Source of the DNA: Methanosphaera sp. BMS
GTDB taxonomy: Archaea; Methanobacteriota; Methanobacteria; Methanobacteriales; Methanobacteriaceae
DNA: 64,000 nt
NCBI RefSeq assembly: GCF_003268005.1
Contig: NZ_CP014213.1
Coordinates: 558,001-622,000 of the forward strand
Reading direction: 5' to 3'
This document shows, in pieces, positions 2 through 63,553 of the stretch. The stretch's first letter is position 1. Each line of letters begins with the position of its first letter. The position numbers were made by a program, and so were the translations under genes. The notes under the pieces are model-generated. The model saw only the letters and a program-made list of their open reading frames with translations. It did no database searches and was not told the origin of the DNA.

Positions 2-3000
2 CTTAACCTGGAATATGTCGAAGCTCAGGGAAAAACAGAACAACAGCTATTTGAAATGGCAGCTGAACTCATAAACACGGATCAATTCGGAGTTACCGAT
101 GATTTGTATTCCGTTGGGTTTACATCATTGATACTCATGAAATATAACTCGCTAATCTATGCACAGATGGGTGTAAACATTGATATATCCGTATTATTCA
201 ATGATCCAACAATCAGAAAACTTGCCACGCAAATCGATGGAAGCAGTCAAGATGTTGATTTGGCTGAAACTATCGAACTTGCCAAAACAATGGATTGTTT
301 CCCACTTACAGAAAACCAGTTAGGAGTATACTATGAATGTATGCAAAATCCTGATGAAATAAGATACACCCTACCGGCCGTCATAAGATTTGACAGTCAA
401 ATAGATGCACATAAATTAAAGGATGCTGTAATCCGTACTGTTGAGGCTCATTCATACCTTAAAACGAGGATTATAACTACAGATTCTGGTCTACTAAGAC
501 AAAAAAGAAATGATGACGCTCAAATTGATGAAATAGAAATTGTCAGTGTTGATTCAATAAGTGACAGTCAAATAATAGAAAACGATGTTAGGGTATTCAA
601 GTTTGGTGATGAACAACTATTCAGGTTTAAGATTTATCAGACACCTGATGAGGTAGTATTATTCAGTGATATCCATCATATAATTACCGATGGAGTGTCA
701 CAAATCAACCTATTTGCCGACATAGCAAGAGCCTATGAAGGTAAGCAATTGTCACAGGAAATTGTAGATGGATACGCTTATAGTCTTATCGAGGAGGAAA
801 ATAAAGATAGTGATAGATATCTTAAATCCAAGGAATTCTTTGATGATAAGCTGTCACAGGAGATTGAATCCACAATACTCACACCAAACCTTAACGGAAA
901 TCCGGATGAAGGTCAACTCAAAACGGTCATTGACGATTTTAATTCAGATAAAATCAATGAATTATGTGCAAAGTACTCATTAAGTAAGAATGCAGTCATA
1001 TTATCTGCCCTTACCTTAACGTTAAACAAGTACACGTTCAGTGATAAAACATTCATTACCACCATATTCAATGGAAGATCCAATCCATATTACTATGACA
1101 CACAGGGATTTTTAGTAAAAACACTTCCATTAATATTCAATAATGAAGATAGGCAAGTTCCAATTAAAGAGTTTATCAATGACATCAATGATGTATGGAA
1201 GGATACAATAACCCATACCGAATATCCATACACAAACATTGCAGACAGTTACCAATTAAAACCTGAATTCTTCTTCTCATATCAGGAATTCTATGATACG
1301 GATGGTATAATAATCAATGAAAAAACTTATCATGATTATGATTTGGCCGATGATAACATCGTGACAACTGAATATAAAGTCAATATGGATATATATGTAT
1401 TTGAAAACAAACTTGAATTCCTACTTGGCTATAATGACCAATTATACAGTGAAGATTATATTAAAACATTTATAAATTCAATGAAATTTGTTTTAGAACA
1501 ATACGTTGACATGAATATAGAACAAGAAAGAATTTGTGATGTTGAATTGAATAGTGTTAGTAAGCAACCGACATTTACGCCTGTTGAAACTCCATTTATA
1601 CATAAAAGATTCGAAAAACAAGTTGAAACCAAGCCTGATGACGTTGCAATAGTTTCAAATGGAGACGAATACACTTATAAACAGTTAAATGAATTAAGCA
1701 ATAAGATTGCCAATGGATTAATCAGTCGTGGAGTCAAGCCAAAGCATAATATTCTAATAATGCTTCCACGAACAATTGACCTGATAGCATCAATCATTGG
1801 TGTTTTAAAGGCTGGCTGTGGATTTATCCCACTGGACATGGAATATCCTAAGGAAAGAATAGAATACATATATGAAAACAGTCAAGCTGATTATATAATA
1901 GCTAATGAAAGCTATCAAAATGCATTGGACATCAAGGATTTACTCGAGCAAGAAAATACAGAAAATCCAAATGTGGAATTATCACCATCCGATACTGCAT
2001 ACATGATTTACACCTCGGGTTCTACAGGTAAGCCTAAGGGGGTTATGATTGGTCATGAAAATGCATGTAACCAGGTTGAAGTAAATCCAAAAGCAGAATA
2101 TGACAATCTCTTAAGTATTGCAACCATTGCATTTGACACATCATTGGAGGACATCTTGACCGGTATAACCAATGGTATCAAAATAATCTTTGCCAATGAC
2201 TCTGAAATCAAGAATGTAGTCGATTTAACCAAACTGATCAAGCAAGAAAAACCTGAGGTTATGGAATTTACACCTTCAAGATTACTGTCATACCTTGAAG
2301 TAGAGGAGTTCTGTGAGGTCATATCCTGTGCTAAATGTATCGTAATGGGTGGGGAACAGTTCTCGTCCAAGGCATTTAATGCAGTCAAGGAATACACCGA
2401 TGCTAAGGTATATAACAGTTATGGTCCAACAGAGGCGACAATAGCTTCAAACTATAAGCAAATAACCGATCCAGACAACATTACAATAGGTAAGGCTTTA
2501 CATAACTATGTAACAGAAGTTAGGGATATTGATGGAAAACTTCTTCCACAGGGAGTGATGGGAGAGTTATACATCGGTGGTGTTGGTGTAGGAAAAGGTT
2601 ACTATAACATGCCTGACAAAACTCAAGAAGTATACCTTTGGATAAATGACATTCCATACTACCGTAGCGGTGACTATGCAATAGAACTGCCTGATGGTGA
2701 AATAGACATTAAGGGAAGAATAGACAATCAAATCAAACTAAGAGGTCTTAGAATAGAAATCGGTGAAATAGAATCAAACATTTCCAGATTCCCAAATATC
2801 AAACAGAACATAGTTGTAATCAAGCAAATAAATGGCAGTGAGCATTTATGCACCTACTTTACATCAGAGGTTGATATTGATACAAGACTCTTAAAACGTT
2901 ATCTTGAAAGCAAGCTAACCAAATATATGGTACCATCAGTATTTATGCAAATAGATGAAATGCCACAAACACCTAACGGTAAAACGGACATCAAGGCATT

Positions 3001-6000
3001 ACCTGAACCTTCACTTGGACTTAATTATGTTGAACCTGAAACCGAAACCGAGAAGAAACTCTACAAACTGGTCTCATCAATTACAAACGTGGAACAATTC
3101 GGTATAACAGATGACCTATACACGTTGGGATTCACTTCATTAACATTGATGAAACTGAATTCATTAATATACAATGAAACTGACGTGAACATTGAAATAA
3201 CAGATTTATTCAATAGTCCTAGCATTCAAAGTCTTTCGGATAAGATAGACAATAATATAGATACGCAAATTGATATTCCTGAGATTATTGAAACCGCACG
3301 TTCAATGGATTTATTCCCATTAACAGCTAACCAGTTGGGTATATACTATGAATGTATGCAAACAGAAGAAATCAAGTATACGATGCCTTCTGCCATTAGA
3401 TTTGGTGGTGATATTGATGCAGATAAACTTAAGCAGGCAATCATTGATACAATTGAGGAACATCCATATCTTAAAACAAGAATAATTACGACAGCAGATG
3501 GTCAGCTAAGACAGAAACGATGTGATGATGCTGTAATTGACGAAATTGAAATAGTGGAAATTGATTCAATAACCAATAAAGAGATGATGGAAAATGACAT
3601 CAAATACATTCCATTGGATGATAATCAGCTCTTCAGATTCAAAATCTATAAGACTCCTAGTGAAACTGTTCTCTTCAGTGACATTCATCATATAATTACA
3701 GATGGCGTATCTCAGAATCTTCTATTCGAGGATATAATAAGTGCATATAACGGTGGAAAAATAAGTAAGGAGACGGTTGACGGATATGCTTACAGTCTGA
3801 TTGAAGAAAAACTCAGTGAAAATGAAGTTTCAAAAGAGTATTATAAAAACAAATTTGCACAGGGATTTGAATCCACGGTCTTAACTCCAAACTTAAATGG
3901 TAATCCTGATGAGGCCAAGATTAAACTCATAGAGGAAAGAATCAGTTCCGACTTCGTAAGATTATTCTGTAAGGATCATTCAATAAGTCCAAACGTATTG
4001 TTCATGACTGCTACAATACTTGCCTTAAACAAGTTCACATTCAGCGACAAGACATTGTTGACGACAATATTCAACGGCAGGTCCAATTCCAACTACTACA
4101 ATACTCAGGGAATGCTTGTTAAAACGTTACCAATAATGGTAAGTAGCCATGACAGGGAGATGATGGTTGAGGACTTCATTAAATTGGTTGATAAGACTTG
4201 GAAGAATTCATTGGTTCACAGCAATTATCCATACACTAAGCTTTCAGAACAATATCACCTAAAACCTGAATTCTTCTATGCATATCATGGAAAATTTGAG
4301 ACCGATAATCTTGAACTTGAGGGAAACACTTATGCTATGGAAGAACTTGACGGTACCGTTGCAACAGATTATAAAATCAACCTTGACATATTTGATGATG
4401 GAGATACAATTGGATTGATTCTTGAATATAATGATCAGCTATACACCAAGGATTATGTAGCCGAATTCCTGAATGCGATTAAATACATATTGGTACAGTT
4501 CTTTGTAAATGATATGGATAAGTTAAGAATCAATGAAATTGAACTTGCCGATGATTTTGCATTGCATGAATTTGAAGAGGTGTCAAATCCATTCTTGCAT
4601 AAGCGTTTTGAGGCACATGTTCTAACCAGTCCTGACAAAACGGCCCTTGTTGCAAGTGACGAATCATTAACATACGACCAACTTAATAGAAAGGCAAATC
4701 GTATAGCCAATGGATTGATTGACAGGGGTGTTAAAGCTGGAAGCAATATACTGATTATGCTTCCACGTACAAGTGACCTGATAGCTTCAATTATCGGTGT
4801 ATTAAAAGCAGGTTGTGCATTCATACCTCTTGATTTAAAGTTCCCGAAAGAAAGGATAGAGTACATCTATGAAAACAGTCAAGCGGATTATATAATTAAT
4901 GTAGATGGTATTGAACCAAATTCATTATCTGTCAAACAATTACTCTTGGAAGATAATGAGGAAAATCCAAACGTTGAAATTACACCGGATGACTTATCAT
5001 ACATGATTTATACCTCCGGTTCAACAGGTAATCCTAAAGGTGTAATGATATCACACGAAAATGCATGTAACCAGGTAGCATCAAATCCTAAATGCAGATA
5101 CAATAACCTGTTAAGTATTGCAACAATAGCATTCGACACATCACTTGAGGACATATTGACAGGAATAACAAACGGTATTAAAATAATATTTGCAAATGAT
5201 GATGAAATAAAAAGCATCGTGGAGCTAATCAGACTCATCAAACGTGAAAAACCTGAAGTAATGGAATTTACTCCTTCAAGATTACTGTCCTATCTTGAAT
5301 TTGATGAGTTCTGCGAAGTCATATCATGTGCCAAATGTATAGTAATGGGTGGAGAACAGTTCTCTGCCAAGGCATTTGAGGAAGTTAAAAAATATTGTGA
5401 CGCTGCAATATACAACAGTTATGGTCCAACAGAGGCAACGATAGCATCCAACTACAAAGAAATCACAGATCCAAATTACATCACAGTAGGTCCGGCCTTA
5501 ACAAACTACATAACAGAGGTTAGGGACATCGATGGAAAACTTCTACCAAAAGGAGTTATGGGAGAGTTGTATATCGGTGGAGTTGGTGTAGGAAAAGGTT
5601 ACTACAATATGCCTGAGAAAACAAGAGAGGTATACCTGAGGATAAACAACATCCCATACTACCGTAGCGGAGACTATGCAATAGAGCTACCGGATGGGGA
5701 CATTGACATTAAGGGAAGAATAGACAATCAAATCAAACTCAGGGGACTGAGAATAGAAATCGGTGAAATAGAATCAAACATATCAGACTATCCTAACATT
5801 AAACAAAACACAGTAGTCATCAAGAAAATCAGAAACAATGAACATCTATGTGCATACTACACTGCAGAAGAAGAAATCAACAAGGATGACCTTAAATCAT
5901 ACCTAAGCCAAAGACTAACTCAATATATGGTTCCTACGGTATTTATGCAAATAGATGAAATGCCACAGACACCAAACGGTAAAACAGATACCAAAGCATT

Positions 6001-7474
6001 ACCGGAACCTAAACTGGAATTAAACTATGTTCCACCAAAAAACAAACTTGAGCAAAGCATATGTGCCATATATTCATCCATATTGGATATTGAAGTGGTG
6101 GGAGCAGAAGATAACTTCTTTGAAATAGGTGGAACATCTCTCATAGCATCAAAACTCATCATTGAACTGCTTAAACAGGATTTTGACGTCAAATATGATG
6201 ACATATTCAGAAACCAGACACCAAGAAAACTCGCCAGTTTCCTCTCCGGTGATGAAATATCCGAAGATTTGGATGTTGAGATTATAGAAAACTATGATTA
6301 TACCAAAATCAACGAACTGCTTGCAAACAATACATTTGAAAACTTTGCAAATGGCAGGAATCGCGATATAGGAAACGTATTATTAACCGGAGTTACCGGT
6401 TTTCTAGGTATTCACGTGTTATATGAATACATCAAGAATGAAGATGGAATCATATATTGTATGCTAAGAAAAGGTTACTTTGACAGCTGTGAAGAACGCT
6501 TCATTGACATGATGAACTACTACTTCGAAGAAGACTTCAGTGACCTTATCGGTTCACGCATAATATTGACTGAAGGTGACATAACAAGCTTGGATGACTT
6601 TAAGAAATTAAACGAATGCCCAATCGATACAATCATCAACTGTGCAGCAATAGTAAAACACTACACCCACGATGACTATATCTTCAGGGTAAACGTCGAT
6701 GGAGTAATCAATGGACTTGAATTTGCAGAAGCAAATAATATAGCATATGTTCAAATATCAACTACAAGTGTATTGGACGAATACACAGAAGATATGAATA
6801 TTGATGATGTGCATTGTGATGAAAAAACATTATATTGGGGACAGGACTTGTCAAACAAGTACCTCAACAGTAAATTCCTTGCAGAAAGGTTAGTGCTTGA
6901 AAAGGCATTATCCGGTCTAACGGTAAAAGTCATCAGGGTAGGAAACCTTATGGCAAGATACTCGGATGGAGTATTCCAGAAAAACTATGATACGAACGCT
7001 TTTCTTAATAACATAAAGGCAATCAAAAACCTAAAGGCAACAATTCCAGCCATATCCGGTGAAATTGTTGAACTGAGTCCGATTGATTATGTTGCAAAAG
7101 CCACCCTTTCATTGTCAAAAACTCCAATGGAATCCGTGGTATTCCACGCCGTAAGCGATAAGTTTATTCCTATTAAAAAAATACTGGATGTCTTAAATTC
7201 ATTTGGCTATCCTATCAAAGAGGTTAACATAGATGAATTCAGAAAAATCTATGAACAAAACATGGATGAAAATATTCAGGGAATCATCACGGCTGATTTA
7301 ACCATTGACGACTTTGACTTTGAATATGATGATGAGAACGATGCGGGTAATCTTGTATTGATGGATCAGACACTTGATGTTCTTTATTCATTAGGATTCA
7401 AGTGGCCGGAATGTGATGACGGTTACATTGAGAAATTTATAAAATATTTAAATGAGGTACATTATTTTGATTAA
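2..7474 (+). CDS. Non-ribosomal peptide synthetase, 3' part: T-C-A-T-C-A-T-reductase (5' end outside window)
   Basis: The frame is open from base 2 with adenylation-to-carrier linker sequence, so the ATG at 56 is internal and the gene is cut by the window edge. Numbering from base 56: carrier domain with GFTSL (Ser24); condensation domain about 75-490 with HHIITDG near 207; adenylation domain about 510-1000 with YTSGSTGKPKG near 651, NSYGPTEAT and NGKTD; carrier with GFTSL; second condensation (HHIITDG near 1210) and adenylation (motif near 1651) domains; carrier with GGTSL near 2027; and a C-terminal thioester reductase about 2105-2472 with nucleotide-binding GVTGFLG and an SDR-type Tyr-x-x-x-Lys (YLNSK). 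Established for the family: each module adds one amino acid and the reductase releases the peptide as an aldehyde or alcohol. Both visible adenylation domains carry the pocket segment FDTSLED, so they probably use the same substrate, which I cannot name. It is followed closely by a MATE exporter. Confidence 0.95.
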   Translation, partial: LNLEYVEAQGKTEQQLFEMAAELINTDQFGVTDDLYSVGFTSLILMKYNSLIYAQMGVNIDISVLFNDPTIRKLATQIDGSSQDVDLAETIELAKTMDCFPLTENQLGVYYECMQNPDEIRYTLPAVIRFDSQIDAHKLKDAVIRTVEAHSYLKTRIITTDSGLLRQKRNDDAQIDEIEIVSVDSISDSQIIENDVRVFKFGDEQLFRFKIYQTPDEVVLFSDIHHIITDGVSQINLFADIARAYEGKQLSQEIVDGYAYSLIEEENKDSDRYLKSKEFFDDKLSQEIESTILTPNLNGNPDEGQLKTVIDDFNSDKINELCAKYSLSKNAVILSALTLTLNKYTFSDKTFITTIFNGRSNPYYYDTQGFLVKTLPLIFNNEDRQVPIKEFINDINDVWKDTITHTEYPYTNIADSYQLKPEFFFSYQEFYDTDGIIINEKTYHDYDLADDNIVTTEYKVNMDIYVFENKLEFLLGYNDQLYSEDYIKTFINSMKFVLEQYVDMNIEQERICDVELNSVSKQPTFTPVETPFIHKRFEKQVETKPDDVAIVSNGDEYTYKQLNELSNKIANGLISRGVKPKHNILIMLPRTIDLIASIIGVLKAGCGFIPLDMEYPKERIEYIYENSQADYIIANESYQNALDIKDLLEQENTENPNVELSPSDTAYMIYTSGSTGKPKGVMIGHENACNQVEVNPKAEYDNLLSIATIAFDTSLEDILTGITNGIKIIFANDSEIKNVVDLTKLIKQEKPEVMEFTPSRLLSYLEVEEFCEVISCAKCIVMGGEQFSSKAFNAVKEYTDAKVYNSYGPTEATIASNYKQITDPDNITIGKALHNYVTEVRDIDGKLLPQGVMGELYIGGVGVGKGYYNMPDKTQEVYLWINDIPYYRSGDYAIELPDGEIDIKGRIDNQIKLRGLRIEIGEIESNISRFPNIKQNIVVIKQINGSEHLCTYFTSEVDIDTRLLKRYLESKLTKYMVPSVFMQIDEMPQTPNGKTDIKALPEPSLGLNYVEPETETEKKLYKLVSSITNVEQFGITDDLYTLGFTSLTLMKLNSLIYNETDVNIEITDLFNSPSIQSLSDKIDNNIDTQIDIPEIIETARSMDLFPLTANQLGIYYECMQTEEIKYTMPSAIRFGGDIDADKLKQAIIDTIEEHPYLKTRIITTADGQLRQKRCDDAVIDEIEIVEIDSITNKEMMENDIKYIPLDDNQLFRFKIYKTPSETVLFSDIHHIITDGVSQNLLFEDIISAYNGGKISKETVDGYAYSLIEEKLSENEVSKEYYKNKFAQGFESTVLTPNLNGNPDEAKIKLIEERISSDFVRLFCKDHSISPNVLFMTATILALNKFTFSDKTLLTTIFNGRSNSNYYNTQGMLVKTLPIMVSSHDREMMVEDFIKLVDKTWKNSLVHSNYPYTKLSEQYHLKPEFFYAYHGKFETDNLELEGNTYAMEELDGTVATDYKINLDIFDDGDTIGLILEYNDQLYTKDYVAEFLNAIKYILVQFFVNDMDKLRINEIELADDFALHEFEEVSNPFLHKRFEAHVLTSPDKTALVASDESLTYDQLNRKANRIANGLIDRGVKAGSNILIMLPRTSDLIASIIGVLKAGCAFIPLDLKFPKERIEYIYENSQADYIINVDGIEPNSLSVKQLLLEDNEENPNVEITPDDLSYMIYTSGSTGNPKGVMISHENACNQVASNPKCRYNNLLSIATIAFDTSLEDILTGITNGIKIIFANDDEIKSIVELIRLIKREKPEVMEFTPSRLLSYLEFDEFCEVISCAKCIVMGGEQFSAKAFEEVKKYCDAAIYNSYGPTEATIASNYKEITDPNYITVGPALTNYITEVRDIDGKLLPKGVMGELYIGGVGVGKGYYNMPEKTREVYLRINNIPYYRSGDYAIELPDGDIDIKGRIDNQIKLRGLRIEIGEIESNISDYPNIKQNTVVIKKIRNNEHLCAYYTAEEEINKDDLKSYLSQRLTQYMVPTVFMQIDEMPQTPNGKTDTKALPEPKLELNYVPPKNKLEQSICAIYSSILDIEVVGAEDNFFEIGGTSLIASKLIIELLKQDFDVKYDDIFRNQTPRKLASFLSGDEISEDLDVEIIENYDYTKINELLANNTFENFANGRNRDIGNVLLTGVTGFLGIHVLYEYIKNEDGIIYCMLRKGYFDSCEERFIDMMNYYFEEDFSDLIGSRIILTEGDITSLDDFKKLNECPIDTIINCAAIVKHYTHDDYIFRVNVDGVINGLEFAEANNIAYVQISTTSVLDEYTEDMNIDDVHCDEKTLYWGQDLSNKYLNSKFLAERLVLEKALSGLTVKVIRVGNLMARYSDGVFQKNYDTNAFLNNIKAIKNLKATIPAISGEIVELSPIDYVAKATLSLSKTPMESVVFHAVSDKFIPIKKILDVLNSFGYPIKEVNIDEFRKIYEQNMDENIQGIITADLTIDDFDFEYDDENDAGNLVLMDQTLDVLYSLGFKWPECDDGYIEKFIKYLNEVHYFD
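62..6060 (+). repeat. Tandem module duplication inside the NRPS, period about 3.0 kb
   Basis: The carrier-condensation-adenylation block occurs twice in direct order. The carrier serines lie about 3002 bases apart, the condensation HHIITDG motifs about 1003 residues apart and the adenylation core motifs about 1000 residues apart. The adenylation halves are nearly identical at protein level over the substrate pocket, and at DNA level around 2660-2770 versus 5660-5770, which points to a recent duplication or ongoing gene conversion. Confidence 0.85.
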
Positions 7475-23390: not shown

Positions 23391-23563
23391 CTCTTCATCA
23401 ATACCTTTTTATTAATCTCCAAATTACTTTACTTTTACAAAATTTTATTAACGATAAACGCCAATGTATTAGTGTTATGTATTTTATTTTTAAATTGATT
23501 TTTTTTAAATATTAAATATTATACTTATTTATTTTGATGATTAAATTAAATGGAGGAAAGAGC

Positions 23564-26500
23564 ATTAATAATAAGTCAATCTTCGTTATAACATCTGTCG
23601 TATTATTACTGCTATTAGTTGTAGGTGCAGTATCCGCCCAGTCGGATAACGCTACAGATAGCTATGATACTAGTGATGTTATGACATCAGATTCAAATGC
23701 ACAATCAACCGACTCGACAGATAGTGTAGTTGAAAAAGCTAAATCAAATGATATCAAAAAAGATACGGGCAAAGTAACACCCGAGGTAATAGTTAAAAAT
23801 AAAACAGCCAAGACCAATACATCAGTAACATTGGAGGCACAACTGCCTGAGGATGCAAGCGGACAGGTTTTATTTAAAATAAATGGATTAACCATAGGGG
23901 ATGCATTCAGGACAAATGGTGGACTGGTAAAATATGATTACAATATACCAATCTATTCGAGCAAAAATTATACCATAAACTTTGTATATGGTGGAAACAG
24001 CAAATATGAAGCAACAAGAAGTGAGGGTATATTGTCATTGACAAAACTGAACACACACGCCACAATCAAACTAAACAGGACAAGCCTTGCTCAAGGTGAA
24101 AGTGTACTCTTTAGTGTAAACATTAAAAATGAGTTAAAAAATGGCATTCAGGATGCATTTGTTATTAAGATAAACGGTCAAAGTATCGGCTCAAACAAGA
24201 CGGGAAGCGATGGAAACGGATATCTGTACTATACTATTCCAAGTACGTATAAGATAAATAACTATACCGTCCAACTTGTCTACGGCGATACGAATACTGC
24301 CCTGGGAAAGAGAGTTAACACTACATTAAGAGTAAACAATCCGACGAGAATTACCTTAAACGGCATAGCAAAAACCCAGACATCTGGAGTGTTAAAGCTT
24401 AAATCTAAGGTAGTCGACAAGTTAAGAAACAACGTCACATCAGGTGAGGTGGTATATAAAATCAATGGAATAACCATGGGTGGTTCAAACGTTACAAACG
24501 GTATAAGCGAATTTGAATATCAGCTACCATTATACAGTCCAAGAAACTATACTATAACTGCATTATATGGTGGAAACAGGTACTATAAGCCAAGCAGTAC
24601 AAATAAGACACTGAATTTGATAAAGATGGATAGCAGATTATCAGCCAAGAACAATACAATTGTTATTTCAGCAGACAACAAATTAAACATCAGCCTAAAC
24701 GATAAGTTCAACAAATCCATAGACAACGTAAACGTAAGCTTAGTGGTAAATGGAGAGGAAGTTGCCAAATATCCCGTGATAAATGGAGTGGCAATAATAA
24801 ACAACACCCTAAGGGATGTCAATTCAACCCAGAAAGTAAATGCTTCAGTGGTATTTGAGGCCAACAGGTTCTATGAAAAATCAACGTTGACCTTAAAGGT
24901 TGTAAATCCTACAAAGATTACCGTAAACGCTCAAGATACAAAGACGACAAAACTATTATACATAAATGCCACGGTTCTTGACTCATTAAATAGCAACGTA
25001 ACAAACGGAAAGGTCTACTTCTATCTGGACAATAAATTAATCGCAAACACAACAGTTAATAATGGTGCTGCATCAACAACATACAGGCTTGGTTTAATAA
25101 GCGGCAAAAACCATAACCTCACGGCTAAATATATTGGAGATACATATTATCAGTCATCTAACAGTACAAAAAGTGTGAATATTCTTAAATTAAACACTAG
25201 AATCACACCAGTAAACGTTAACATTACAGCAGGATCATATAATAAGACAGCCGTCAAGGTATTGGATGAATTGAACAATCCTGTCTTAACGGGTATTCTA
25301 AGTTTATCTGTTAACAATAAGCATATAGGAAATTTCTCCGTCAGAAACGGTACTTCCAATGTAACGTTCATATCATCAAACAATGATTCAAACTGTGTGC
25401 AAAACTATAGCCTGCAATACGTTGAAAATAATTACTACAATGCATCAACGGCTACGGGCATATTGAACATTGCACCATTGGCCACTGTATATGTAAGTCC
25501 TAACGGTAATGACAACAGCTTAGGTACCAGTAAAAACCCATACAGGACGATAGCATATGCAACCAGGCACGTAAAGGAGGCTGGTATTGTATACGTTAAT
25601 CCCGGCCAGTATAGTGAGTCAAACATTAACATCAATAAATCCATAAACATCTTTGGAGTAAATTCATCTAATGTAATCATAACCCCAAGCCAAAGTGGAT
25701 TTGTATTTAACAATAGCAATTCAACCGCCAATATGACAATAGTAAACATGACTATCACAAATGCCAGAATCAATACAGCAAACACTTCGGCAATTGTATC
25801 CAGGGGTCCACTGATAGTTCTAAACTGTAACTTTGAAAATAACCAGGCAAACGTTAACTCTTCATCAAGTTCAATATATGCAACCGGTTATCTTGCAGTC
25901 TCATCCAGTACATTCAATAAGAATACCGCCAAATCCAATGGTGGTGCAATAACAGCACTGGGTCATAGGGTTATTATAATAAACTCCAAATTTACAAACA
26001 ACACGGTAAATGCCAATGATGTTGGTGGAGGTGCAATATACTTAAACAGTGCAAACACGACCATTGAATCAACGATATTTACAAATAACAATGTACATGG
26101 TATCAATGTCACGGGTGGAGCTATCAAGAAGGTATCAGGTAACCTGACATTGAATCGCGTGAATCTTGCTTACAACACTCTGACAGGTTCAGGTTATAAT
26201 GTCGGTGGTGCTTTAATAAATCTCAACGGATATTTGTATATCGTTAACTCAACTGTCAATGCCAATAACGTTTCAAGTAGTGATAACTGTGGAGCCGGAG
26301 CATTATACTCTCAAAACAGTGCAACAACCATAGCATCATCAACCATTACAAACAATTACGCTGTAGGAAAAAACGTATTCGGTGGAGCTTTACAGAACTT
26401 CAATTCATATCTGTCTGTATCAAACACTAACTTTACCTATAACAATGCATTAGCAACCAGGGGCCAAGCGGTTGGTGGGGTGATAAACCAGAACAATGGA

Positions 26501-26941
26501 AGCATTAAAATCATAAACAGCAGATTCCATAAGAATAGCATTAAGGGTAATGAGTCATACGCGGCAGCCATATACTTTATCGGTTCAAACATTACGGTTA
26601 ACCATACACAGTTTAATCAGAACGTTGCCAATGCAACGGCTATCGGTGGTGCAGGAGCGTTGTTTGTCAATGCCAACTCAAGCATTACAGGATGTAACTT
26701 TACTTCAAACCAGGCACTCGGTAAAAGCAATGGTGGAGGAGCTATAATCAATGCAGCTAACATGACTGCCAATGAAAATAACTTCATATCCAATGTTGCA
26801 ACTGCCAGTGCTAGTGCCATATCAAATACTGGCAAAACTGTTAACATAAACAACAACTATTGGGGAAGTAGTAGTCCTACATGGACTAAGTTAATAAGGG
26901 GTGTGACAAAGCCTTCAAAATATTATACCAAGGCATTATGA
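23564..26941 (+). CDS. Large secreted adhesin-like protein: Ig-like repeats plus parallel beta-helix
   Basis: About 1125 residues. A signal peptide (KSIFVITSVV then a Leu/Val core ending VGAVSA) is followed by an Asp/Ser/Thr-rich spacer. Six or so repeated Ig-like beta domains of about 95 residues follow (recurring YGGNxxY and FKINGxxIG), to about residue 650. A right-handed beta-helix begins with YVSPNGNDN near residue 650 and contains many GGAI/NNxA rungs, ending with NNYWG near the C-terminus. This is the architecture of methanogen adhesin-like proteins that bind host, bacterial or protozoal surfaces. Start: an in-frame ATG lies at 23537, but the Shine-Dalgarno GGAGG (23552-23556) is downstream of it and 7 bases before ATT 23564. 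I therefore place the start at ATT, tentatively. No C-terminal membrane anchor is visible. Confidence 0.88.
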   Translation: MNNKSIFVITSVVLLLLLVVGAVSAQSDNATDSYDTSDVMTSDSNAQSTDSTDSVVEKAKSNDIKKDTGKVTPEVIVKNKTAKTNTSVTLEAQLPEDASGQVLFKINGLTIGDAFRTNGGLVKYDYNIPIYSSKNYTINFVYGGNSKYEATRSEGILSLTKLNTHATIKLNRTSLAQGESVLFSVNIKNELKNGIQDAFVIKINGQSIGSNKTGSDGNGYLYYTIPSTYKINNYTVQLVYGDTNTALGKRVNTTLRVNNPTRITLNGIAKTQTSGVLKLKSKVVDKLRNNVTSGEVVYKINGITMGGSNVTNGISEFEYQLPLYSPRNYTITALYGGNRYYKPSSTNKTLNLIKMDSRLSAKNNTIVISADNKLNISLNDKFNKSIDNVNVSLVVNGEEVAKYPVINGVAIINNTLRDVNSTQKVNASVVFEANRFYEKSTLTLKVVNPTKITVNAQDTKTTKLLYINATVLDSLNSNVTNGKVYFYLDNKLIANTTVNNGAASTTYRLGLISGKNHNLTAKYIGDTYYQSSNSTKSVNILKLNTRITPVNVNITAGSYNKTAVKVLDELNNPVLTGILSLSVNNKHIGNFSVRNGTSNVTFISSNNDSNCVQNYSLQYVENNYYNASTATGILNIAPLATVYVSPNGNDNSLGTSKNPYRTIAYATRHVKEAGIVYVNPGQYSESNININKSINIFGVNSSNVIITPSQSGFVFNNSNSTANMTIVNMTITNARINTANTSAIVSRGPLIVLNCNFENNQANVNSSSSSIYATGYLAVSSSTFNKNTAKSNGGAITALGHRVIIINSKFTNNTVNANDVGGGAIYLNSANTTIESTIFTNNNVHGINVTGGAIKKVSGNLTLNRVNLAYNTLTGSGYNVGGALINLNGYLYIVNSTVNANNVSSSDNCGAGALYSQNSATTIASSTITNNYAVGKNVFGGALQNFNSYLSVSNTNFTYNNALATRGQAVGGVINQNNGSIKIINSRFHKNSIKGNESYAAAIYFIGSNITVNHTQFNQNVANATAIGGAGALFVNANSSITGCNFTSNQALGKSNGGGAIINAANMTANENNFISNVATASASAISNTGKTVNINNNYWGSSSPTWTKLIRGVTKPSKYYTKAL

Positions 26942-62120: not shown

Positions 62121-62578
62121 ATATTTCAATTATTTTTTTTATATTTTTTTTTAAACTATATTCATAACTAATTATTTCTTCTATTGATTTATACTAATAT
62201 AAAACCAATTTTATTTTAATATTAAGATATTGATAACTAATTTTATACTTATTATATATTTTTCAATAATTTAAATTTGTTAATATATTTCTGATTTAAA
62301 TGGAATACTCTCTTTTTGTATAATTATAAAATTGAAAAAGGTGATTTTGACTATGTTTATTAAAAATTACTAGTTTTATCTAAAATTTTACATAAAAACA
62401 TAACGATTAAAATCAAATCTTTATTATATACAACTAAAAATAACACATCTTAATTTTCGTATTTTTATATTTTATACTTTTTTCTAAGTCCTTTTTTATA
62501 TATGAATGCCTATTTTTATTAAATAAAAGTTATAACTTTATATAGTTTTTTAAAGAATATAATAAATGGAGGTATATA
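62121..62578. other. AT-rich intergenic stretch with a short palindrome before the Met-rich gene
   Basis: There are T-runs at 62131-62151 (terminator-like) and otherwise low-complexity A/T. The 14-base palindrome AAAGTTATAACTTT at 62526-62539 is 40 bases before the ATG, where a promoter or operator would be. Nothing else is seen. Confidence 0.45.
62526..62539. promoter_or_regulatory. 14-base palindrome, candidate operator/promoter element
   Basis: A perfect palindrome located 40 bases upstream of ATG 62579, at the expected position of a TATA/start region. A/T palindromes are frequent by chance in such DNA, so the call is weak. Confidence 0.3.
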
Positions 62579-63553
62579 ATGTCAAAAAAATTGTTAATAA
62601 GTGTATTATTATTAATATGTTTCGTAACTCTAGCTAGTGTTAGTGCTGCAGATAACAGTTCAGAAGATTCTGTGGCAACTGATAGCAGTACAGCTGATTC
62701 TAATGCACCTAGTACAGGAAACATTTTTAATACAAATGGAAATGAAAACTCCCAGTCAACTGGTGGTTTTTCAATGGGTAACATGAGTGGTATGAACATG
62801 TCAGATATGATGTCTGGAATGAATATGTCAGATATGATGTCCGGTATGAACATGAGTGGTATGAACTTCTCTGGAATGAATATGTCAGATATGATGTCTG
62901 GTATGAACATGTCTGGAATGAACTTCTCTGGAATGAACATGTCCGGTATGAATATGTCAGATATGATGTCTGGTATGAACATGAGTGGTATGAACTTCTC
63001 TGGTATGAATATGTCAGATATGATGTCTGGTATGAACATGAGTGGTATGAACTTCTCTGGAATGAACATGTCCGATATGATACCAGGTATGAATATGTCT
63101 GATTTAATACCAGGTATGAACACAACCACAAATGATACAACACCAGAAGCTAGTCCAAGTAACGCTGATCAAAGTCAGGGAAATTCCCAACCAGCACCAA
63201 CTGCTCAAAAACAGAAAGTTGTTAAACAAAATCCAACAAAAACAACTAACAACCAACAGAAAGTATATAAAACACATACTATCAAAAAAGCTAGTGACAA
63301 TAGTGTAGTATATCAAGGAAACTCATTGACACTAGATGCAATAAACAAAATATTCGGTCAAAATATAGCTAATGGACATTTAGTAGTCTTCATGGATGGT
63401 CAGGTAGTATTCAATGGTACTGTAACTGATGATTTATCATTTACCATACTACAGTTCATTGAACAATATCTTGGTAATCATAACATTAAAATAGAATTTA
63501 CTGATGCCAACAACAATACCAACACCTATGATGAAAATGTTATAATCGAATAA
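62579..63553 (+). CDS. Secreted Met-rich pentapeptide-repeat protein with conserved C-terminal domain
   Basis: 324 residues. A signal peptide (SKKLLISVLLLICFVTLASVSA) is followed by a spacer of about 40 residues. About residues 65-180 are repeats of the five-residue unit MN[MF]S[GD] (MNMSG, MNFSG, MNMSD), one Met in two or three positions. Then come Asn/Gln/Thr/Pro-rich sequence and, from about residue 225, the domain shared with 60180-62120 (IKKASDN, IANGHLVVFMDGQVVFNG, LQFIEQYLGNHNIKIEFTD). The unit fits the i-2/i/i+1 register of pentapeptide-repeat beta-helices with Met replacing Ala and Leu. The strong GGAGGT before ATG 62579 supports the start. Function is unknown; thioether-metal binding or oxidant quenching is conceivable. 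Confidence 0.85.
   Translation: MSKKLLISVLLLICFVTLASVSAADNSSEDSVATDSSTADSNAPSTGNIFNTNGNENSQSTGGFSMGNMSGMNMSDMMSGMNMSDMMSGMNMSGMNFSGMNMSDMMSGMNMSGMNFSGMNMSGMNMSDMMSGMNMSGMNFSGMNMSDMMSGMNMSGMNFSGMNMSDMIPGMNMSDLIPGMNTTTNDTTPEASPSNADQSQGNSQPAPTAQKQKVVKQNPTKTTNNQQKVYKTHTIKKASDNSVVYQGNSLTLDAINKIFGQNIANGHLVVFMDGQVVFNGTVTDDLSFTILQFIEQYLGNHNIKIEFTDANNNTNTYDENVIIE
62779..63120 (+). repeat. Coding DNA repeats encoding the MN[MF]S[GD] array
   Basis: Blocks built from ATGAACATGAGTGGT, ATGAACTTCTCTGGA and ATGAATATGTCAGATATGATG recur in a higher-order pattern of about 75-105 bases. Copies are nearly identical in sequence, so the array is recent and probably length-variable. Confidence 0.85.

Follow-up and report, generated by a model that had tools for sequence, protein, structure and literature searches.

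Why would a secreted protein of a gut methanogen carry 42 of its 44 methionines within a stretch of 119 residues (aa 66-184, 35% Met)? The gene that raises this question lies in a stretch of 64,000 nucleotides from Methanosphaera sp. BMS (hereafter “the window”; contig NZ_CP014213.1, positions 558,001 to 622,000), an archaeon whose genome consists of a single contig of 2.87 Mb. A sequence-only reading of this DNA had proposed a secreted, Met-rich protein in the register of a pentapeptide beta-helix, on whose surface stacked thioethers might bind Cu(I) or Ag(I) or act as a renewable oxidant sink, and had named no described family of this composition. Secretion and richness in Met are borne out by a signal peptide and by the array itself, and most of the remaining picture had to be redrawn: the protein is best read as an unusual, Met-fixed member of a branch of methanogen adhesin-like proteins (ALPs) that is characterized by arrays of N-glycosylation sequons.

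Gene and Protein Architecture

The ORF is a genuine gene, and the signals that precede it, as well as the layout of its product, are given in Table 1. An antisense ORF (62530-63129) was rejected: it is the complement of the repeat and bears no sign of being a gene. Apart from the signal peptide, no hydrophobic helix was found in the 324-aa protein, which contains 44 Asn residues in total, and an NCBIfam search with the protein returned nothing above the cut-off.

Table 1. Features of the Met-array gene and of its neighboring paralog (positions within the window).
Feature	Position	Strand	Details and basis
Whole gene	62579..63553	+	324 aa plus stop; ORF confirmed at exactly these coordinates
TATA-like element CTTTATATAG, archaeal promoter candidate	62536..62545	+	Sequence reading; consensus resemblance only
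Shine-Dalgarno sequence GGAGGT, ATG start 5 nt further on	62568..62573	+	Sequence reading
Signal peptide, aa 1-24 (MSKKLLISVLLLICFVTLASVSAA), AXA-type cleavage site, no lipobox	62579..62650	+	Sequence; single N-terminal helix (aa 3-19) in model
Acidic Ser/Thr/Asn linker, aa 25-65	62651..62773	+	Sequence; pLDDT <50
Met/Asn/Ser/Gly array, aa 66-184	62774..63130	+	MNMSG/MNFSG pentads and MNMSDMMSG nonads, 57-bp super-unit
Gln/Lys/Pro/Asn linker, aa 185-232	63131..63274	+	Sequence; pLDDT mostly low, climbing at the domain boundary
C-terminal Ig-like beta-sandwich domain, aa 233-324, homologous to archaeal big domain (ABD) repeats	63275..63550	+	pLDDT 92-97; matches to internal ABD-like repeats
Neighboring paralog, 646 aa	60180..62120	+	Signal peptide, N-terminal beta region, irregular Leu/Asn/Ser sequon array (~aa 320-520), same C-terminal domain (~aa 555-646)

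A Mosaic of Two Unit Lengths

Besides its 42 Met, the array comprises 18 Asn, 22 Ser, and 18 Gly residues, and neither His nor Cys. Units of five and nine residues are intermixed in it, and a super-period of 19 residues overlies them: the motifs are MNMSG, MNFSG, and MNMSD, and the 16 spacings between MN units amount to five residues in nine cases and to nine in seven, the longer spacing being composed of MNMSD and a four-residue MMSG. Self-identity is strongest at a lag of 19 residues (0.67), reaches 0.49 at a lag of 5, and is 0.07 at a lag of 20. Because period 5 yields 56 matches, compared to a mean of 23 and a maximum of 38 in 10,000 shuffles, the five-residue repeat is not a product of chance.

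The DNA under the array consists of tandem repeats of 57 bp and 129 bp, the copies of which match at 85-94%. These copies have diverged synonymously (AAC/AAT, TCA/TCT/TCC/AGT, GGT/GGA), and the leading Met and Asn are kept in 17 of 17 units. In the stretch that can be aligned with the ortholog of another Methanosphaera genome (G015), 5.5 nonsynonymous changes fall on 71.7 sites and 10.5 synonymous changes on 15.3 sites; the codon alignment is ambiguous and the units are not one-to-one orthologs, so that the direction of this result alone is usable. The protein pattern of the array looks to be under selection rather than merely recently copied.

Orthologs with a Met array occur in three other Methanosphaera genomes (G005, G011, and G015), and the two close relatives among named records are both Methanosphaera metagenome-assembled genomes (MAGs; L031, L032). 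The reading frame is broken in G005 and G015 and the G011 copy ends at a contig edge; these copies may be pseudogenes or contain errors of sequencing. The number of MN units is 17 here and 3 and 5 in the relatives, with the reservation that the ortholog arrays were read from MAGs, whose assembly can collapse repeats. In viral contigs and plasmids, no relatives were found.

Sequons Are the Shared Element of the Arrays

All 18 Asn residues of the array stand in N-x-S/T sequons (shuffle mean 3.7, maximum 10), as do 27 of the 30 array Asn of a paralog in the same genome that is built with Leu (L012), while eight further adhesin-like proteins encoded in the genome reach 13-34% and four long ORFs of the window 8-25%. 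The association between Asn and a Ser or Thr two places on has an odds ratio of 4.3 in secreted array proteins, in contrast to a negative association (0.31) in cytosolic pentapeptide proteins; p-values for this association are overstated, because neither the units of one array nor those of different paralogs count as independent data. The genome encodes one STT3/AglB oligosaccharyltransferase (PF02516, 219 bits, E 8e-65), and the array is probably N-glycosylated. The S-layer glycoproteins of Haloferax, Methanothermus, and Sulfolobus offer a parallel, as exported proteins that are rich in N-x-S/T sites and come from genomes that encode AglB. However, the protein described here is not an S-layer protein, its sequons are arranged in a tandem array, and its glycosylation is predicted from sequence.

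The Leu-type paralogs, L012 in the same genome and L003, L004, and L005 elsewhere, share the architecture, the N-x-S/T array, and a sister C-terminal domain, but have Leu/Phe in place of Met, mostly strict pentads instead of the 9+5+5 arrangement, and a longer array (30 units). The neighboring paralog (Table 1) has relatives of the same architecture in another genus (L102, L104, L105), and its units, like those of the Leu-type proteins, include LNFSS, LNLSG, and LNTSG. What is constant across all of these arrays is a bulky residue, followed by Asn (rarely Asp), any residue, and Ser or Thr; in Leu arrays, a minority of units have Met at that bulky position (4 of 30 in L012). Since every MN unit contains a sequon and the paralogs carry Leu/Phe, the sequon together with the alternation of bulky and polar residues emerges as the conserved design, and Met as lineage-specific.

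In related proteins of 650 aa from another genus of the family, Asp is more frequent than Asn at the sequon position (71 D, 55 N), and the density of sequons therefore looks derived in Methanosphaera. The choice between Asn and Asp may be structural, and pentapeptide-like L[ND]LS units yield sequons as a by-product. Two simple repeats were noted along the way: a (SINIT)n array with 15 sequons in L120 (G021, another genus of the family), which is probably simple-sequence DNA, and an ORF of 211 aa that contains an extended (NNNY)n repeat and lies some 1 kb beyond the Leu-type paralog of the BMS genome (L038:8916-9551).

The C-Terminal Domain

A profile built from 12 sequences of the C-terminal domain matches successive internal Ig-like (ABD-like) repeats (i-Evalue 6e-7), and the domain is most plausibly a terminal form of the archaeal big domain known from ALPs (PMC11532034). 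The same profile finds matches in 48 of 139 genomes of the family, in three genera, with the lower-scoring ones mostly inside large repeat proteins. A fold search with the domain against solved structures produced weak matches to Ig/FnIII-like and carbohydrate-binding proteins, none of them with E <0.001. In the BMS genome, the domain is widespread and closes many other surface proteins; in the 11 further ORFs that were read, mostly large beta-helix-like or papain-like surface proteins, it is represented by the last 58-60 residues from a GHLxVYxDG motif on. A tree of the domain joins Met- and Leu-type proteins as sister clades (support 0.91) and places the neighboring paralog with its relatives from the other genus.

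Of 20 Methanosphaera genomes, 11 (most of them 1.9-2.9 Mb in size) match the terminal domain strongly, and the other nine (mostly 1.6-1.9 Mb) weakly or not at all, which makes the domain a possible marker of a large-genome Methanosphaera clade.

Pentapeptide Beta-Helix or Unfolded Stalk?

Pentapeptide repeat proteins follow the rule [A/C/S/T/V][D/N][L/F][S/T/R][G/R], in which the residues i-2 and i are packed inside the helix; a bulky residue at i-2 is destructive and abolishes the function of Qnr (PMC2964730). With PF00805 proteins such as MfpA and Qnr, the array shares the five-residue period, an N before the hydrophobic residue, and S and G after it, and it differs from them by a bulky i-2, a broken register, secretion, dense sequons, and the absence of a predicted beta-helix. 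The earlier proposal of a beta-helix register thus holds as far as the period and a weak resemblance are concerned (PF00805 profile, 26.9 bits over a curated cut-off of 20.2, with no single stretch passing alone), but not for the register as a whole, given the mixed spacings of 5 and 9.

A genuine right-handed quadrilateral beta-helix with a core of packed Met would agree with the way in which bulky and polar residues alternate, with the PF00805 score, and with a weak alignment to the designed beta-solenoids 5dn0 and 5dns (E ~1e-4). Neither a small residue (A/C/S/T/V) at i-2 nor an unbroken five-residue register with a 20-residue coil is present, however: seven of the 16 spacings are nine residues long, identity at the lag of one coil is the 0.07 given above, and Met occupies i-2 in all 17 MN units. 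The array family as a whole has a bulky i-2 in 181 of 220 units (82%), compared to a small one in 123 of 173 units (71%) from cytosolic controls, i.e., seven pentapeptide proteins from related genomes. Shifting the register, with S at i-2 and Met at i, leaves no N/D at i-1, and Pro is present in the last two nonads. AlphaFold2 places no strands in the array (pLDDT 32-43, compared to 92-97 for the C-terminal domain), an outcome that the sequence-only reading had itself named beforehand as speaking against a helix, and the Leu-rich array of the neighbor is likewise unfolded; as both predictions were made from alignments of three sequences, without a positive control, this structural negative amounts to moderate evidence and leaves some room for a beta-solenoid. 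Spacing, bulky i-2 residues, lag-20 identity, and the model together rule out the helix as the best reading, and we consider it improbable.

Roles for Methionine

Why Met was fixed where the paralogs use Leu is a question of its own. One possible answer is a soft-metal site: the thioethers of MxM and MxxM motifs on a flexible stalk might bind Cu(I) or Ag(I), keeping these ions off the cell or feeding an importer, as Met-rich ectodomains of the Ctr type do. There are 12 MxM and 18 MxxM motifs in the 119 residues, and the only three loci outside Methanosphaera that a genome scan confirmed, all bacterial, look like copper handlers (L033-L035, named here from a reading of their sequences): one reads as a multicopper oxidase into which MNMSGMNMGGMDM is inserted, one as an outer-membrane protein of the CopB type, and one as a cytochrome oxidase subunit II whose tail is MNMSGMNMSGMNMSGMDMSGMDM. 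It is because MNMSGMNM-like stretches adjoin copper in these three proteins that the metal reading is kept alive. Moreover, Met codons are kept while synonymous sites vary, and Met seems to be held by selection, subject to the ambiguity of the codon alignment. The similarity to Met-rich copper proteins extends to MNMSGMNMSGM, which is common to the array and L035; yet such proteins, including Ctr ectodomains with their Mets motifs, carry the repeats on copper transport or redox domains, often together with His, whereas Pfam and NCBIfam searches found no such domain in the target protein and the array has neither His nor Cys. Also, sister paralogs of the same design carry Leu/Phe, copper-ATPase-like genes sit elsewhere in the genome, and a copper operon is ruled out, as no recognizable copper gene lies beside the locus in any of four genomes. 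Copper in the rumen is for the most part bound as sulfide. On balance, a soft-metal function is unlikely, and its more specific form, a glycan-coated, Met-lined stalk that would serve as a Cu(I)/Ag(I) buffer on an adhesin-like scaffold after replacement of Leu by Met in the sequon array, is less probable again. The statement that no family of this composition is described is correct insofar as no named Met-rich family matches the protein over its full length, but needs qualification in view of copper Mets motifs and of the Met-rich bacterial copper proteins.

Could the array scavenge oxidants on the outside of the cell, as a sacrificial and renewable sink? In favor of this are its many Met residues, which the unfolded model leaves exposed, and two genes about 3-4 kb downstream that, by the look of their sequences, encode a ferritin-like protein and a MarR-like regulator; in G005 and G015, however, the ferritin-like gene is not close to the locus. 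Searches for MsrA and MsrB found neither in the genome, which is 99.96% complete; in 12 and 10 of 14 control genomes, respectively, they score. Lacking a Met sulfoxide reductase, such a sink would be single-use, and we reject it as a candidate, with hardly any probability left for it. Alternatively, Met might have no role of its own, having been fixed by concerted evolution of the 57-bp unit and tolerated in place of Leu. The closely matching 57-bp and 129-bp copies and the presence of Met as a minor variant in Leu arrays agree with this. On the other hand, three synonymously diverged unit types all keep Met, in each of the 17 MN positions, and Met is retained in three other genomes. A lack of function is tentatively entertained as a possibility below even odds; it is compatible, and partly merged, with the explanation of the array as a glycan stalk.

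As a separate observation, the MNMSGMNMSGMNMSGMDMSGMDM tail of L035 ends a cytochrome oxidase subunit II-like protein of Neobacillus fumarioli (L035, ~6030-6126), and its occurrence on this copper protein is convergent.

A Probable Sequon Stalk on an Adhesin-Like Protein

With a probability of roughly 0.6, we regard the protein as a short surface protein of the adhesin-like kind: its stalk would consist of sequon repeats that probably carry N-glycans, and Met has become fixed at the site taken by Leu in the paralogs. ALPs constitute over a tenth of the genomes of M. smithii and M. stadtmanae and have no clear definition, and some of the groups described lack a right-handed beta-helix domain (PMC11532034). 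The target resembles these proteins of gut Methanobacteriales in its export signal or N-terminal membrane segment, its Asn-rich repetitive sequence, and its Ig-like ABD-type domain. It differs in that it is short (324 aa, where ALPs are characterized by a length far above the mean), has no right-handed beta-helix domain in the model, and contains a Met-rich array; neither pentapeptides nor methionine are mentioned in the main text of the ALP paper (Gupta and Seedorf, 2024; PMC11532034).

According to the sequon-stalk reading, the protein would be exported via its signal peptide, whereupon many of the array's 18 sequons could receive N-glycans from the single AglB. The resulting glycan-coated, mostly unfolded stalk might place the Ig-like domain relative to the cell wall, and unequal crossing-over might alter the length of the array and, hence, the reach of the stalk. 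By analogy with the family, the protein may be attached to the surface and have a role in adhesion or surface coating. With a sequon in nearly every unit, the array would offer a ready test for N-glycan-coated surface stalks in gut methanogens, and the pair of Met- and Leu-type paralogs in one genome allows the direct question whether Met adds metal binding.

Other Genes in the Window

Nonribosomal peptide synthetase genes are rare in archaea. The window begins with one such candidate (56-7474, + strand), which encodes a 2472-aa protein with a condensation domain, two AMP-binding domains, three carrier domains, and a terminal reductase-like domain. Another adhesin-like protein, of 1135 aa and with Big_3_5 Ig-like repeats, is encoded at 23534-26941 (+ strand).
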